Position numbers and translations under genes: made by a program
Assembly: GCF_015624505.1 (NCBI RefSeq)
Contig: NZ_CP061379.1
Location: 124,001 to 188,000 of the forward strand
Direction: 5' to 3'
Origin: Bradyrhizobium commune
GTDB taxonomy: Bacteria > Pseudomonadota > Alphaproteobacteria > Rhizobiales > Xanthobacteraceae
Length of the DNA stretch: 64,000 nt
Notes under the pieces: generated by a model
What the model saw: the letters and a program-made list of their open reading frames with translations, nothing else
Told to the model about the DNA's origin: nothing
Databases searched by the model: none
Part shown: positions 21,048-56,201 of the stretch, piece after piece
Numbering within the stretch: the first letter of the stretch is position 1
How the letters are laid out: each line of letters opens with the position of its first letter

Positions 21048-21173
21048 ACCTCTCCCGCTTGCGGGAGAGGTCGACACGCTCGCAAGAGCGTGGCGGGTGA
21101 GGGCTTTCTCCTCTTGGGGGTTCTCGCTTGCGAAGACACCCTCTCCCCAACCCTCCCCCGCGGGCGGGGGAGG
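21048..21173. repeat. Paired palindromic repeat element (MITE-like)
   Basis: A left palindrome, ACCTCTCCCGCTTGCGGGAG, is followed by GGGTGAGGG and TTCTCC boxes. A right arm has CTCTCCCCAACCC and a CTCCCCCGCGGGCGGGGGAG palindrome. It matches the repeats bounding the DUF559 gene, but the core is only about 50 bases and encodes nothing. It lies between the infC terminator and the next minus-strand gene. Confidence 0.75.
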
Positions 21174-21209
21174 AGCGCACCGCCGTGGTGACGACGATTT
21201 GCCTCGAAC

Positions 21210-22966: not shown

Positions 22967-23117
22967 CGCGGAAGTCTCCTCGTATCTCCCTTGGTGCCCG
23001 GCCTCCGCGCGAGGTTCAACCCAGCCGGTCGCAAGCCCGAAATGACCGGCTTTTTGCTTGACGTTACGGCCTTCGGGCGGCGACAACCCAGCCGAATTTG
23101 GAGCTAAGGATTTGACT

Positions 23118-24200
23118 GTGTCCGACCTCGCAACGCTCGAAACTTCCATCCTCGACCAGATCGCCTTAGCCGGCGATGAAGCCGCGCTCGAAGCGGTGCG
23201 CGTCGCGGCCCTCGGCAAGAAGGGTTCGATCTCGGGACTCCTTGCCACGCTCGGCAAGATGTCGCCCGACGAACGCAAGACGCAAGGCGCCGCGATCAAC
23301 CAGGCCAAGGACAAGGTCACCGAGGCGCTGACCGCGCGGCGCGACGTGCTGAAGTCGGCCGCGCTCGATGCGCGGCTGGCGTCGGAGACCATCGACGTCA
23401 CCCTGCCGCTGCGCGATGCGCCGACCGATGCCGGCCGCATCCATCCGCTGAGCCAGGTCTGGGACGAGCTGACCACGATCTTCGCCGACATGGGCTTCTC
23501 GGTCGCCGAAGGACCCGACATCGAGACCGACGATTACAACTTCACCAAGCTGAATTTTCCGGTCGGCCATCCGGCGCGCGAAATGCACGACACGTTCTTC
23601 TTCCATCCGAAGGAGGACGGCTCGCGCATGCTGTTGCGCACCCATACCTCGCCGGTGCAGGTGCGCACCATGCTCAGCCAAAAGCCGCCGATCCGCGTGA
23701 TCTGCCCAGGCCGCACCTATCGCATCGATTCGGATGCGACCCACACGCCGCAATTCCACCAGGTCGAAGGCCTCGTCATCGACAAGCACTCGCATCTCGG
23801 CCACCTCAAATGGATCCTGCACGAGTTCTGCAAGGCGTTCTTCGAGGTCGACCACATCAACATGCGCTTCCGGCCCTCGTTCTTCCCGTTCACCGAGCCG
23901 TCGCTGGAAGTCGACATCCAGTGCCGCCGCGACAAGGGCGAGATCCGCTTCGGCGAAGGCGAGGACTGGCTCGAGATTCTCGGCTGCGGCATGGTGCATC
24001 CGAACGTGCTGCGCGCCTGCGGCATCGATCCCGATGAGTACCAGGGTTTTGCCTGGGGCATGGGCATCGACCGCATCGCCATGCTCAAATACGGCATCGC
24101 CGATCTGCGCCAGCTGTTCGACAGCGACGTCCGCTGGCTCAACCATTACGGCTTCAAACCGCTCGAAGTGCCGACGCTCGCGGGAGGGCTAAGCTCGTGA
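23118..24200 (+). CDS. pheS: Phenylalanine-tRNA ligase alpha subunit
   Basis: The 360-residue protein has an N-terminal coiled coil and the class II catalytic core: motif 2 [20 protein letters not shown] and motif 3 [18 protein letters not shown]. With PheT it charges tRNA-Phe. The start is GTG at 23118 ([10 protein letters not shown]), because the frame upstream to 23058 has no conserved sequence. The downstream partner pheT is separated from it by a DUF559 gene and palindromic repeats. Confidence 0.97.
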
Positions 24201-24246: not shown

Positions 24247-24297
24247 CGTCGAGAGAGCCCTCTCCCTGCCCCTCCCCGGCTTGCGGGGGAGGGAACG
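24247..24297. repeat. Single arm of the palindromic repeat family
   Basis: GAGAGAGCCCTCTCCCTGCC leads into a CTCCCCGGCTTGCGGGGGAG palindrome. The orientation is that of a right-hand arm. It lies between the pheS stop and the left arm flanking the DUF559 gene. Confidence 0.65.
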
Positions 24298-24354: not shown

Positions 24355-24403
24355 ACCCCCTCCCCCGCTTGCGGGGGAGGGTTGGGGTGAGGGTATCTCC
24401 TCA
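24355..24403. repeat. Left inverted arm bounding the DUF559 gene
   Basis: CCCTCCCCCGCTTGCGGGGG is followed by AGGGTTGGGGTGAGGG and TCTCCTCAATGGGG. Its reverse complement matches the arm at 24781-24829 over about 30 bases, so the two form terminal inverted repeats around the endonuclease gene. Confidence 0.75.
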
Positions 24404-24862
24404 ATGGGGTTGCCAATGGTTGATCCTAAACATCCCGATTGGAAAGTATCGACTAAGCTCCGCGCCAACGCTCGCGCTCTCAGGCGCAATTCGACCGATC
24501 CGGAACGTATCATCTGGTCAGAGCTGCGCGGCGGCCGGCTAAACGGCGCAAACTTCCGCCGTCAGGTACCAATTGAGAACTATATCGCTGACTTCATCTG
24601 CCATGCGGCCAAGCTCGTCATCGAACTCGATGGCGGCCAACATTTCTCCGATAAAGGCGAACGCGCAGATGCTCGGCGCTCTGCAATCATCGAAGCGCGG
24701 GGCTTCAAGGTGCTCCGCTTCAGCAATCTCGACGTCATGACCAATCGTGCGGGCGTTCTCGAAACCATTGCGACTACCGTCGCGGAGAGAGCCCCCACCC
24801 CAACCCTCCCCCGCAAGCGGGAGAGGGAGCAGACCGTCTCCGTGGAGAAGAAGCAGCCATGA
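24404..24862 (+). CDS. DUF559 (Vsr-like) endonuclease-domain protein between pheS and pheT
   Basis: The 152-residue protein has the DUF559 pattern: [20 protein letters not shown], then [20 protein letters not shown], and the active-site strand [11 protein letters not shown] followed by [23 protein letters not shown]559 belongs to the PD-(D/E)XK superfamily near very-short-patch-repair nucleases, and the Asp in IADF and the Glu and Asp in IELD fit the metal site. The final 25 or so codons read through the right repeat arm ([13 protein letters not shown]). Its stop overlaps the pheT start (ATGA), so it is coupled to pheT. The start is ATG at 24404 or 24416. Confidence 0.8.
24781..24829. repeat. 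Right inverted arm bounding the DUF559 gene
   Basis: GCGGAGAGAGCCCCCACCCC leads into AACCCTCCCCCGCAAGCGGG. It is the inverted partner of the arm at 24355-24403 and is translated as the tail of the DUF559 protein. Confidence 0.75.
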
Positions 24863-27267
24863 AATTCACCCTCTCCTGGCTGAAGGACCATCTCGACACC
24901 GACGAGCCGCTGGAAAAGCTCGCCGACAAGCTCACCATGATCGGGCTCGAGGTCGAGAACATCGAGGACAAGGCGAAGGCGCTGAAGCCGTTCACCATCG
25001 CGAAGGTGATCTCGGCCGAGCAGCATCCGAACGCCGATCGCCTGCGTGTCTGCATGGTCGACACCGGCGACGGTGGCGCGCCGGTGCAGGTCGTGTGCGG
25101 CGCGCCGAATGCGCGCACCGGGCTCGTCAGCGTGTTCTCGCCGCCGGGCACCTACATTCCCGGCAAGGACATCACGCTCGGGGTCGGCACCATCCGCGGC
25201 GTCGAGAGCCGCGGCATGCTGTGCTCGGCGGCCGAGCTCCAGATCTCCAACGACCATGACGGCATCATGGAATTGCCGGCCGATGCGCCGATCGGCGCAG
25301 GTTATGCCGAATGGGCGGCGCTGGGCGATCCCGTGGTCGAGATCAATCTGACGCCGAACCGGCAGGACTGCACCGGCGTGCACGGCATCGCGCGCGATCT
25401 CGCCGCCGCCGACATGGGCAAGTTCAGGGATCCCTCGATCAAGCCGATCAAGGGCGAATTCCCCTGCCCCGTGAAGGTCACGGTCGAGGACGCCGCACTC
25501 TGTCCGGGCTTCGCGTTGCGCCTCGTGCGCGGCGTCAAGAACGGCCCGTCGCCGGAATGGCTGCAAAAGCGGCTGACCGCGATCGGGCTGCGCCCGATCA
25601 ACGCGCTGGTCGACATCACCAACTTCATGACCTACGACCGCGCGCGGCCGCTGCACGTGTTCGACGCCAGGAAGGTCAAGGGCAATCTGGTCGTGCGCCG
25701 CGCCCGCGACGGCGAGACGCTGCTCGCGCTCGACGGCCGCACCTACAATCTCGATCCGGCCATTTGTGTGATCGCGGACGAGCACGGCGTCGAATCGCTC
25801 GCCGGCATCATGGGCGGCGAGGCCTCGGGCTGCGACGAAGATACCACCGACGTACTGATCGAATCGGCGCTGTGGAACGAGATCAACATCGCCCAGACCG
25901 GCCGCAAGCTCGGCATCAATTCGGATGCACGCTACCGCTTCGAGCGCGGCGTCGATCCGGCCTTCATGGTGCCGGGGCTGGAGCTTGCGACCAAGCTCGT
26001 GATGGAGCTGTGCGGCGGCACGCCGTCGGAGAATGTCGTGGTCGGCAAGACCTTTGGCGACGACCGCGTGATCGATTTCCCCGTGACCGAGGTGAAGCGT
26101 CTGTCCGGCATCGAGGTGCCGCAGCCGGAGATGAAGCGCATCCTGTCCCATCTCGGCTTCATGATGGCGGGCCCGGGCCCGGTGGTGAAGGTCGCGGTGC
26201 CGTCGTGGCGCTCGGACGTGCACGGCAAGGCCGACATCGTCGAGGAAGTCGTCCGCATCTACGGTGTCGACAAGGTGCCGATGACGCCGTTCGAGCGCGG
26301 CGAAGACGCGCGCAAGCCGGTGCTGACGCCGCTTCAGCTTCGCACCCGCCGCGGACGGCGCGCGCTCGCGAGCCGCGGCATGGTCGAGGCGGTGACCTGG
26401 TCGTTCATCACCAAGTCTGCGGCACAACTGTTCGGCGGCGGGCAGCGCGAGCTCGAGGTCGCCAACCCGATCGCAGCAGACCTCTCCGACATGCGGCCGA
26501 GCCTGCTGCCCGGACTGGTCGCGGCGGCACAGGCCAATGCCGATCGCGGCTTTGGCGATGTTGCGCTGTTCGAGGTCGGTCAGGTCTTCAAGGGCGATCG
26601 GCCGCAGGATCAGTTCATGGCGGCGAGCGGCGTGCGCCGCGGCCTTGCATCGTCGGAAGGATTGGGACGGCACTGGTCGGGCTCGTCGCAGGCCGATGTA
26701 TTCGACGCCAAGGCCGACGCGCTCGCGGTGCTGGCCGCGGCCGGTGCGCCGATGCAGGCGCTTCAGATCGTGGCCGGCGGACCGGCATGGCTGCATCCCG
26801 GCCGCTCCGGCACGATCCAGATCGGCCCGCAGAACGTGCTCGGCACCTTCGGCGAGATGCATCCGCGCGCGCTCGAGGCGCTCGGCGCCGACGGCCCGCT
26901 TGTTGTGTTCGAGGTGATCCTCGACCGCATCCCCGAGGCGAAGAAGAAGCCGACCCGCGCAAAACCCTTGATCGAGCTGTCCGCGTTCCAGCCGGTCTCG
27001 CGCGATTTCGCCTTCATCGTCGACCGTGCCGTGAAGGCCGGCGACATCGTGCGCACGGCGCAAGGCGTCGACAAGAAGCTGATCACCGCTGTCAACGTGT
27101 TCGACGTCTATGAAGGCAAGGGCATCGACGACGGCAAGAAGTCGATCGCCATCGCCGTGACGATTCAGCCGCGCGAGAAAACCTTGACCGACCAGGAGAT
27201 CGAAGCCGTCGCCGCGAAGATCGTAGCCGAGGTGACGAAGAAGACCGGCGGCGTCTTGCGCGGATGA
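24859..27267 (+). CDS. pheT: Phenylalanine-tRNA ligase beta subunit
   Basis: The 802-residue protein has, in order, a tRNA-binding OB domain ([20 protein letters not shown]), the B3/B4 editing domain, B5 ([20 protein letters not shown]) and a C-terminal ferredoxin-fold anticodon-binding domain ([20 protein letters not shown]). It partners PheS. The start overlaps the DUF559 stop by four bases and the end overlaps the TauE-like gene by four bases, giving a tightly coupled run. Length is normal. Confidence 0.97.
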
Positions 27268-30586: not shown

Positions 30587-30595
30587 GCCTCCTCT

Positions 30596-30722
30596 GTCGT
30601 CCCGGCGAAGGCCGGGACCCATACTGCGTGATCTCTCGGTTTGCGGGCGGTCGATGTACCAAAGACTAGTCGTCGCCAAACTGCTCCCTGTGGTTATGGG
30701 TCCCGGCCTCCGCCGGGACGAC
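30596..30722. repeat. Paired palindromic repeat (GTCGTCCCGG type)
   Basis: GTCGTCCCGGCGAAGGCCGG at the left end and TCCCGGCCTCCGCCGGGACG at the right end are inverted copies about 80 bases apart. A second element of the same family is at 56081-56201. It lies between convergent genes. Confidence 0.75.
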
Positions 30723-34113: not shown

Positions 34114-34265
34114 CCCCTCTCCCCTTGTGGGAGAGGGTGGATCGCCGCGAAGCGGCGAGACGGGTGAGGGGTCTCTCTCTACGCGTGCATCTCTTGCATT
34201 TGAACTCGCTGAAGCAACCCCTCATCCGGCGCTTCGTGCCACCTTCTCCCACAAGGGGAGAAGGG
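34114..34265. repeat. Paired palindromic repeat element (MITE-like)
   Basis: A left hairpin, CCCTCTCCCCTTGTGGGAGA, and right arm, CTTCTCCCACAAGGGGAGAA, are inverted, with GGGTGAGGGG and CCCCTCATCCGGCGCTTCG inside. It is nearly identical at its ends to the element at 19215-19342. Confidence 0.75.
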
Positions 34266-41942: not shown

Positions 41943-42060
41943 CCCTCTCCCGCCTGCGGGAGAGGTCGGGGTGAGGGTGTCTCCGCAATGGGACAATCCC
42001 CAAGCGGAGAGAGCCCTCACCCGGCACTGCGTGCCGACCTCTCCCGCAAGCGGGAGAGGT
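41943..42060. repeat. Compact paired repeat, short form of the DUF559-flanking element
   Basis: The left arm is CCCTCTCCCGCCTGCGGGAG with GGGGTGAGGG, then TCTCCGCAATGGG. The right arm is GCGGAGAGAGCCCTCACC leading into CTCTCCCGCAAGCGGGAGAG. Both inner boxes match those bounding the DUF559 gene (TCTCCTCAATGGG, GCGGAGAGAGCCC), but the core between them is only about 15 bases. It looks like an internally deleted copy. Confidence 0.75.
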
Positions 42061-44918: not shown

Positions 44919-45707
44919 TCACACCGTCTTCTCCGGCCAACGGCAAAGATCGTTGATCAGGCATACCTCGCAGCGTGGCTTGCGCGCGAGGCAGGTGTAG
45001 CGGCCGTGGAGAATGAGCCAGTGATGAGCATGCAGCATGAATTCGGACGGGATCACTTTTTCCAGCCCGAGCTCGACCTCGATCGGTGTCTTGCCGGGTG
45101 CGAGGCCTGTGCGATTGCCGACGCGGAACACATGCGTGTCGACCGCCATGGTGTGCTCACCAAAGGCCATGTTGAGCACGACATTGGCGGTCTTGCGGCC
45201 AGCGCCGGGCAATGACTCGATCTCCGCGCGCGTGCGCGGCACCTCGCCGCCGAATTCGGCGAGCAGCTTTGCCGACAGCGCGATGACATTCTTGGCCTTG
45301 GTGCGATAGAGCCCGATGGTCTTGATGTACTCGCGCAAGCGCTCCTCGCCGAGATCGAGCATCTTCTGCGGCGCGTCGGCGATTTCGAACAACGCACGCG
45401 TCGCCTTGTTGACGCCGGCGTCGGTGGCCTGCGCCGACAGCACCACGGCAACCAGCAGCGTATAGGGGTTGAGATGCTCGAGCTCGCCCTTCGGCTCCGG
45501 ATTGGCTTTTCGGAATCGGCTGAAGACCTCGTGGATCTCAGCCGGTGTCCAGGGTTTTACAGACTTGGGTTTGGGAGCCTTGGGTTTGGGTGCCTTGGGT
45601 TTGGGAGCCTTGGTCTTCGGCGCCTTCGGCTTCGAAGCGGCCGCCTTTGCCTTTTTCTTCGTCACGGCCGCTCTGCGCGAGGCCGGCTTGCGGATGATTT
45701 TCGCCAT
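44919..45707 (-). CDS. nth: Endonuclease III with basic Lys-Pro N-terminal extension
   Basis: The 262-residue DNA glycosylase has the helix-hairpin-helix LPGAGRKTANVVLNMAFG with catalytic Lys, the catalytic Asp in AVDTHVFRV and a C-terminal 4Fe-4S loop C-x6-C-x2-C-x5-C (CLARKPRCEVCLINDLC). It removes oxidised pyrimidines and nicks the DNA. The first 50 residues are an added basic tail with KAPKP repeats (KPKAPKPKAPKPKAP), absent from E. coli Nth (211 residues). It is divergent from the DUF2244 gene with only 22 bases between starts. Confidence 0.93.
   Translation of the reverse strand: MAKIIRKPASRRAAVTKKKAKAAASKPKAPKTKAPKPKAPKPKAPKPKSVKPWTPAEIHEVFSRFRKANPEPKGELEHLNPYTLLVAVVLSAQATDAGVNKATRALFEIADAPQKMLDLGEERLREYIKTIGLYRTKAKNVIALSAKLLAEFGGEVPRTRAEIESLPGAGRKTANVVLNMAFGEHTMAVDTHVFRVGNRTGLAPGKTPIEVELGLEKVIPSEFMLHAHHWLILHGRYTCLARKPRCEVCLINDLCRWPEKTV
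45571..45615. repeat. Three tandem 15-base repeats inside nth
   Basis: Units TTGGGAGCCTTGGGT, TTGGGTGCCTTGGGT and TTGGGAGCCTTGGTC follow without gaps. On the coding strand they give the five-residue KAPKP-type repeats of the nth tail. The in-frame unit length lets copy number change without a frameshift. Confidence 0.8.
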
Positions 45708-56056: not shown

Positions 56057-56080
56057 CGACGGCGGTCCAACACATCCGGT

Positions 56081-56201
56081 GTCGTCCCGGCGAAGGCCGG
56101 GACCCATAACCACAGGGAGTGGTTGCAGGGTGAGCTGGTAATTCCAAGTCTTCGCAAAACCATTGCTGCGGCGTATGGGTCCCGGCCTGCGCCGGGACGA
56201 C
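56081..56201. repeat. Paired palindromic repeat (GTCGTCCCGG type)
   Basis: GTCGTCCCGGCGAAGGCCGG and TCCCGGCCTGCGCCGGGACG are inverted ends, the same family as 30596-30722, with CATAACCACAGGGAG inside. Confidence 0.75.

Follow-up and report, generated by a model that had tools for sequence, protein, structure and literature searches.

A DUF559 nuclease gene framed by inverted triplex-type repeats between pheS and pheT of Bradyrhizobium commune

Between pheS and pheT of Bradyrhizobium commune, a gene for a DUF559 nuclease is bounded on either side by inverted copies of the triplex-forming repeat known as BoxC, PIT or TM. The repeat family and the protein family were both known beforehand; their link is new here. 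DUF559 genes are usually framed by mirror-image repeats of this type, and as an association and a unit structure this is very nearly certain. The locus is probably one copy of a compact, mobile-element-like unit (repeat, DUF559 gene, inverted repeat) that belongs to a nuclease-driven selfish system resembling REPIN/RAYT. The best reading, by analogy, is that a Vsr-like nuclease would stand in for the HUH transposase in such a system, and the evidence below suggests DUF559 as the missing driver that spreads triplex repeats through bacterial genomes. The published accounts of BoxC/PIT/TM repeats cited here name no gene that moves them. The link gives this large protein family and the repeats a candidate partner each; it raises the possibility that an enzyme acts on a DNA triplex found in nature, and it points to a further, non-HUH way of solving the REPIN problem.

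The locus and its enzyme

The window, meaning the whole stretch of 64,000 nucleotides analysed here, carries the following features at the pheS/pheT junction (window coordinates):

23058..24200, plus strand: pheS open reading frame, longest frame, the true start probably lying downstream; stop TGA at 24198-24200
24258..24293, minus strand: third TM/BoxC-like copy, outside the left arm; one mismatch to the consensus
24358..24393, plus strand: left arm, a TM/BoxC element; palindrome 24358-24381, spacer TTG, purine tail GGGTGAGGG at 24385-24393 towards the gene; exact match to the consensus
24404..24862, plus strand: DUF559 nuclease coding sequence; ATG at 24404 or 24416, stop at 24860-24862
24455..24781, plus strand: DUF559 domain PF04480 (E 7.7e-36 in the genome search)
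24792..24827, minus strand: right arm, a TM/BoxC element, inverted; tail 24792-24800, palindrome 24804-24827; one mismatch
24859..27267, plus strand: pheT, ATG at 24859

A preliminary description of this DNA had placed a DUF559 gene between pheS and pheT, and the open reading frame and domain bear it out: a protein search of the locus returned PF04480 (E 5.9e-36) as the sole family above threshold, with PF18741 sub-threshold. It was equally right that matching inverted arms lie on both sides of the gene (24358-24393 and 24792-24827, 36 nt each and 94% complementary), that the right arm encodes the C-terminus of the protein, as read from the translation, and that the stop codon is coupled to the pheT start, the two overlapping as ATGA. 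Its inventory of two inverted arms stands, with the addition of the minus-strand copy at 24258-24293, which it had overlooked.

Each arm consists of a C/T-stemmed palindrome, then three bases, then a purine tail; the tails of the window arms are GGGTGAGGG, GGGTGGGGG and GGGAGAGGG. The TMECO consensus given by Holder et al. (2015, PMC4666352), CCCTCNCCCN3-6GGGNGAGGGN3GGGNGAGGG, fits the left arm with no mismatch and the right arm and third copy with one each. Reports of BoxC/PIT/TM repeats cover more than 260 genomes, and in vitro their single strands fold into stable triplexes; for TMECO in solution, the same source describes a triplex for the single strand and none in duplex DNA, with no in vivo footprint (PMC4666352). 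A DUF559-driven repeat system had at first been presented as new. The repeat itself is this known triplex motif, and that DUF559 cuts or moves it is what we infer.

The arms at pheS/pheT are not there by chance. Searched in its 6-nt loop form with up to two mismatches, the BoxC/TM consensus has four matches in the 64-kb window, three of them at this locus, and none in 100 shuffled windows; the exact consensus occurs in 27 copies in the genome, and the backwards control in none. Because the element is repeated across the host genome, it could be taken for chance or for ordinary REP clutter in GC-rich DNA, a reading that is contradicted by the shuffle controls and by the position controls given below and is hardly credible.

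The enzyme combines a profile match with conserved catalytic-type residues of PD-(D/E)XK nucleases: E30, D59, E70, D72 and H76, numbered from the ATG at 24416, are invariant in an alignment of 50 sequences. Its PDB relatives by profile are 3hrl (9.5e-38), an endonuclease-like protein, and 3r3p (8e-4), named a mobile intron protein and described in the literature as the homing endonuclease I-Bth0305I. The kinship of YcjD, the E. coli member of DUF559, with Vsr is already in print. The host genome gave five DUF559 matches at E<=0.01; with two of these read as one frameshifted gene, it holds four loci. Three of them (L001, L002 and L003) have inverted elements on both sides, each of a separate sequence type, and the fourth (L004), within a longer open frame, is without framing elements.

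Mirror-image arms across bacteria

Framing by inverted arms recurs at DUF559 genes far beyond the window. Within the genus, arm-to-arm scores at 33 loci had a median of 65, compared with medians of 19-22 when the positions were shifted; four of these loci reached no more than 20. A wider set of 188 loci comprised the best-scoring DUF559 matches of each search together with another 60 from the class level and 20 from the phylum level, without ten lower-scoring or partial class-level matches. Inverted-arm scores of at least 30 were reached by 135 of these (genus 29/31, order 20/29, class 60/87, phylum set 26/41), and the maximum of 940 shuffles was 29. A stricter element detector, requiring a stem of at least 7 plus a mirror tail, found an element no further than 300 bp from the domain at 227 of 263 DUF559 loci versus 11 of 358 control positions 1.1 kb off in the same loci. 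Tails pointed towards the gene on both sides at 126/263 and 1/358, respectively, and 36 of the 263 loci showed no element by this detector. The preliminary description had allowed for DUF559 genes generally lacking such arms; the counts went the other way.

Other genes differ in this respect. Compared with neighbouring open reading frames of at least 100 aa, which were found mechanically and some of which will not be genes, DUF559 genes have elements on both sides in 93/177 cases (neighbours 2/290) and any element in 151/177 (neighbours 19/290). For 80 named GTDB loci, the detector found an element in 69 of the 74 with enough flank; the arm count bounded by tblastn matches gave 35/74 against 4/420 in controls and is too low, as some of these matches extend into the arm. 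The orientation of the tails varies, outward tails being found in L160/L163, Sinorhizobium and Deinococcus. The inverted repeat at a DUF559 gene of Legionella anisa (L275) does not resemble the triplex element, being long and A/T-rich (score 203), and may represent another type of end.

Within the elements, tail and stem covary in mirror order, which is a requirement of a purine-motif triplex. When none of the four purine positions is fixed, the outer stem base agrees with tail position 3 in 253/257 elements and the inner stem base with tail position 6 in 242/257. Unmirrored pairings in the 257 elements carried little signal (p 0.04 and 0.10); p-values of this test are not independent, because related elements are counted apart. 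Over 262 arms, the tail matched its own stem at 0.895, other stems at 0.811 and shuffled stems at 0.768. Mirror order is needed by a purine-motif third strand and dispensable for a duplex-binding protein, and the elements may form triplexes in the cell. The middle spacer, or second loop, is 3 nt long in 122/257 elements and 11-40 nt in 94/257; many of the long ones are, judged by eye, a second hairpin. Inner stem mismatches are T/G in 41/257 elements and C/A in 2/257, an excess which hints that the purine-tail strand keeps wobble pairs.

Arm type follows nuclease type. Over 12,749 pairs of loci with non-homologous outer flanks, protein and arm similarity correlate modestly (rho 0.20; 0/1000 permutations). 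The correspondence also holds at one and the same pheS/pheT junction, where two DUF559 clades, 41-51% identical to each other (20 compared), each come with their own arm type. Among the 40 gene-bearing alleles, clade 1 (n=28) has mostly GCAAGC and GCTTGC loops, and the 12 loci of clade 2 have 12 CCTTGTG and 12 CACAAGG loops.

Gene and repeat also meet in E. coli. In MG1655, the stretch from ycjD to fabI contains a degenerate arm, then a partial second copy of the ycjD 3' end and then a TM copy (L225 1690-1930); in one other ycjD-bearing strain (L374), no exact TM was found there. Most of the ycjD region is found in 3364/5426 genomes. Two strains without ycjD were considered as an empty site and rejected, the border not being clean and the slot being filled by the eef (efflux) operon; an efflux operon in the ycjD slot is reported by a 2026 paper.

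Outside Pseudomonadota, the unit occurs in Deinococcus proteolyticus and D. psychrotolerans within hpa and paa clusters, its inverted elements being near-perfect; the Deinococcus units (L375-L378) lie at differing junctions of these aromatic-acid gene clusters. The four cyanobacterial loci comprise one from Synechocystis with a one-sided element, one from Pseudanabaena with a variant inverted repeat and two with neither. On cyanobacterial plasmids (L379-L381), DUF559 occurs near DUF1156 or BREX PglX genes. Plasmids are not the usual home of DUF559, since the window protein has matches in only 41 of 72,556 plasmid records. At 12 plasmid loci, which include the Deinococcus and cyanobacterial ones above, inverted arms of at least 30 were found in five, a detector element in seven and either in eight; the Thermoactinomyces and P. 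aeruginosa plasmid loci had neither. Among named contigs, arms of at least 30 (controls 4/420) were present at single loci labelled Chloroflexi, Gastranaerophilales, Nitrospirae and Daviesbacteria, and scores fell below 30 at loci labelled Patescibacteria, Bacteroidetes, Aminicenantes and Mollicutes and at a second Gastranaerophilales locus.

Borders, alleles and genome-wide counts

The unit has definite borders. In two pairs of paralogous units within single genomes (L160/L163, 82%; L116/L165, 76%), similarity ends at the outer ends of the arms, and the argument for mobility rests on these two among 17 similar-unit pairs listed. A further BLAST pair, L134/L144, was rejected as two sites sharing only the unit, its neighbours identifying a single site. 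Because the same-genome paralogues are already 18-24% diverged, the gene-bearing unit must rarely be copied. An empty site is provided by Sinorhizobium sp. C101 and Shinella sp. PSBB067, in which the same two open reading frames are separated by 768 bp (L384 1255-2022) and 9 bp (L387 1355-1363), respectively; the Sinorhizobium insert has its DUF559 gene between two element pairs (pair-gene-pair). It is very likely that the DUF559 unit moves. Across 150 units no consistent target-site duplication was found: strict offsets stayed at null level for 4-6 bp, and duplications of 7-8 bp were single cases. At L041 the long arms are nearly identical and an 8-bp direct repeat lies just outside them, perhaps a recent insertion.

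Allelic variation was followed at pheST itself, where 147 Bradyrhizobium genomes with pheT were surveyed, 90 loci fetched and 87 parsed. DUF559 was present at 40 of the 87 junctions and absent from 47, of which 20 had pheS and pheT abutting, 15 had other long content, eight were short without a clean copy and four had one copy. That gene-less orthologues might still keep both arms had been raised in the preliminary description; two element copies without the gene were found at a single one of the 47 (L345). Four of the eight short junctions hold, by eye, a remnant resembling the 3' end of DUF559 plus the right arm. L340 and L352 have a single palindrome that, by eye, joins the left flank of the left arm to the right flank of the right arm of clade-2 alleles, which looks like either a precise loss or a target. 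Placed on a pheST tree, the DUF559 labels change 46 times (shuffled mean 50.6; as low in 6/200 shuffles), which is read only as rapid turnover because the tree was built from the same recombining region.

Within an essential operon, the pheS/pheT junction serves as a slot for variable cargo. The 15 junctions with other long content include 12 with one recurring protein family, which may be ASCH-like (L321, L322, L344, L347, L350, L351, L354, L356, L357, L359, L360 and L365), two with another open reading frame and L345 with elements only; L067, L313 and L345 complete the 15. The repeats might on this basis be recombination-prone cassettes and DUF559 mere cargo between them, given that the slot holds other long sequence in 15/87 genomes, 14 with another open reading frame, and that recombination between palindromes can leave solo copies. 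However, the palindrome pattern finds no element in 13 of the 15 other-content alleles, one in L347 and two in L345; two-sided framing sets DUF559 genes apart from other open reading frames, and the arms follow the type of nuclease, so that this reading is decidedly unlikely.

Another account would make DUF559 a host nuclease for repair or for resolving structures, acting in Vsr-like mismatch repair or in the removal of triplexes and hairpins, with the repeats kept as regulators or substrate and the unit immobile. The Caulobacter DUF559 protein VsrA is linked to the DNA-damage response and read as a VSP-repair (mismatch-repair) enzyme, hits of the family are often named very-short-patch-repair endonuclease, and TM repeats have been tied to instability in E. 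coli (PMC4666352). The gene is also not rare in Bradyrhizobium, with a match at E<=1e-15 in 145/147 genomes, the armless L004 type counted. Yet it is patchy wider out (116/249 genomes of the order at E<=1e-12) and varies allele by allele at pheST, being present in 40/87. It also occurs in several diverged copies in one genome (G398), most with unlike arms, and it is represented at one site by two clades with their own arm types. A host role with an immobile unit is, on this balance, unlikely, and a mobile unit remains the preferred reading.

Mobility is also consistent with genome-level counts of the pattern CTCCCN{2,8}GGGAGN{5,35}GGRTGAGGG, a tally to which the arms at DUF559 loci also contribute. 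In an order sample of 249 genomes (DUF559 called at E<=1e-12), the median was 15 hits in the 116 genomes with DUF559 and 0 in the 133 without. At least five hits were found in 85/116 and 11/133, respectively, and permutation within 20 mixed families gave 0/20000 as high. The corresponding figures in a phylum sample of 299 genomes, which shares members with the order sample, were 63/86 and 10/213, and 19/27 and 7/159 for its 186 non-alpha genomes only. As exceptions in the order sample, 14/116 genomes with DUF559 were without a pattern hit and 26/133 genomes without it had some. The latter reach up to 66 hits, and up to 95 in a genome of the phylum sample without a DUF559 match, as might be expected if the elements were moved by something else, such as another transposase or replication slippage, and preferred to insert beside DUF559. 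This is very improbable: mirrored two-sided insertion with matching arms is hard to obtain from independent insertions, and element numbers track the presence of DUF559 within families.

Many copies of the element are found away from the nuclease gene. The window holds three gene-less pairs:

21052..21174: gene-less pair of the same family; plus-strand element 21052-21103, TM-type minus-strand element 21139-21174
34119..34260: gene-less pair, tails facing; plus 34119-34170, minus 34219-34260
41947..42056: gene-less pair, tails facing; plus 41947-41977, minus 42014-42056

Among 100 elements listed of the 107 in the host genome, 27 of 28 neighbouring elements less than 3 kb apart stand tail to tail, with gaps of 27-61 bp in 25 of the 27 and of 138 bp in one; the only gene-sized gap (376 bp) holds a DUF559 gene. 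By the pattern, 48 of the same 100 have no partner, and 23 of these have a looser palindrome within 200 bp. Genome G351 has, among the hits listed below 1.62 Mb, 22 pairs with tails in and 10 with tails out; 21 of the tails-in pairs are spaced 28-77 bp and one, at 470 bp, holds DUF559. Two 580-bp gaps between elements in this genome were considered and rejected: they belong to a duplicated composite of 1.2 kb that has no DUF559 match. This 1.2-kb repeat (L366, L367) is 91% identical at its two sites and has several triplex-type elements inside.

Repeats of other kinds are present in the window as well: tandem 15-bp repeats of the GGGTTTGGGAGCCTT type at 45552-45626 and two CGTC-type REP copies at 30590-30623 and 56075-56108, a family said to have no dedicated transposase (Di Nocera et al. 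2013, PMC3733652).

Proposed mechanism and comparison with known systems

Most likely, DUF559, as a Vsr-type PD-(D/E)XK enzyme, would recognise a folded or palindromic end, that is, a Y-rich hairpin with a purine tail that mirrors its purine strand. It would cut at or near that end, and the break may then be repaired from another copy, with the repeats as homology. Such repair would spread the gene-bearing unit or short gene-less pairs, in the manner of RAYT with REPINs or of a homing endonuclease with its site, and the gene-less tail-to-tail pairs would be the non-autonomous form. That DUF559 acts on its arms is likely, and we infer from the arrangement of the sequences that it both cuts them and moves the unit. 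Copying by homing-like break and repair, rather than by cut-and-paste, is proposed tentatively; it is favoured because target duplications are lacking, the kin include a homing nuclease and solo alleles exist. With similar reserve, we suggest that DUF559 units could form a distinct class of transposable elements, in which a Vsr-like PD-(D/E)XK nuclease is the sole enzyme and triplex ends are recognised, and which would be the source of BoxC/PIT/TM in Pseudomonadota as well as of similar repeats in Deinococcota and Cyanobacteriota.

The closest match on the side of the repeats is BoxC/PIT/TM, with which the locus shares the exact TMECO consensus in its left arm and the inverted pairing of unlike copies, also described by Holder et al. 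(PMC4666352). It differs in its second loops, 11-40 nt in 94/257 elements here against 1-6 nt in the published search, and in its right arm, which is translated, whereas TMECO in MG1655 is said always to be intergenic. By term search, DUF559 is absent from the text of Holder et al., who report never finding remnants of a transposase or integrase near TM sites (PMC4666352), and among the papers listed by searches of the open-licence literature, no title or abstract links DUF559 with these triplex repeats. On the side of the protein, the gene belongs with the DUF559/YcjD family (PF04480; E. coli ycjD, PDB 3hrl), which it matches over the whole domain; its repeat context is what is new here.

MITEs and insertion sequences resemble the units in having inverted ends and in occurring as gene-bearing and short gene-less forms. 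They differ in that the units encode only PF04480 and no DDE enzyme and, over 150 units, have no consistent target duplication. Among Vsr-like homing endonucleases, I-Bth0305I (3r3p) is the nearest characterised mobile nuclease by profile, a weak match at E 8e-4, and the solo palindrome at pheST with the outer flanks of both arms (L340 versus L072, by eye) looks like either a homing target or a precise loss; unlike homing endonucleases, the loci read had no intron or intein, the DUF559 units lying between genes or open reading frames (here and in Sinorhizobium).

Like REP/REPIN with RAYT, the units place a gene between inverted palindromic repeats and have few copies of the gene beside many gene-less inverted pairs (compare Di Nocera et al. 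2013, PMC3733652, which covers GTAG and CGTC repeats and the inverted repeats of RAYTs). The enzyme is a PD-(D/E)XK nuclease here and not an HUH tyrosine (Y1) transposase, and the elements have a purine tail that mirrors the stem in place of a GTAG or CGTC tag at the foot of the hairpin. The likeness to REP/RAYT-type or homing-like elements drawn in the preliminary description thus holds in anatomy, and its interpretation is supported.
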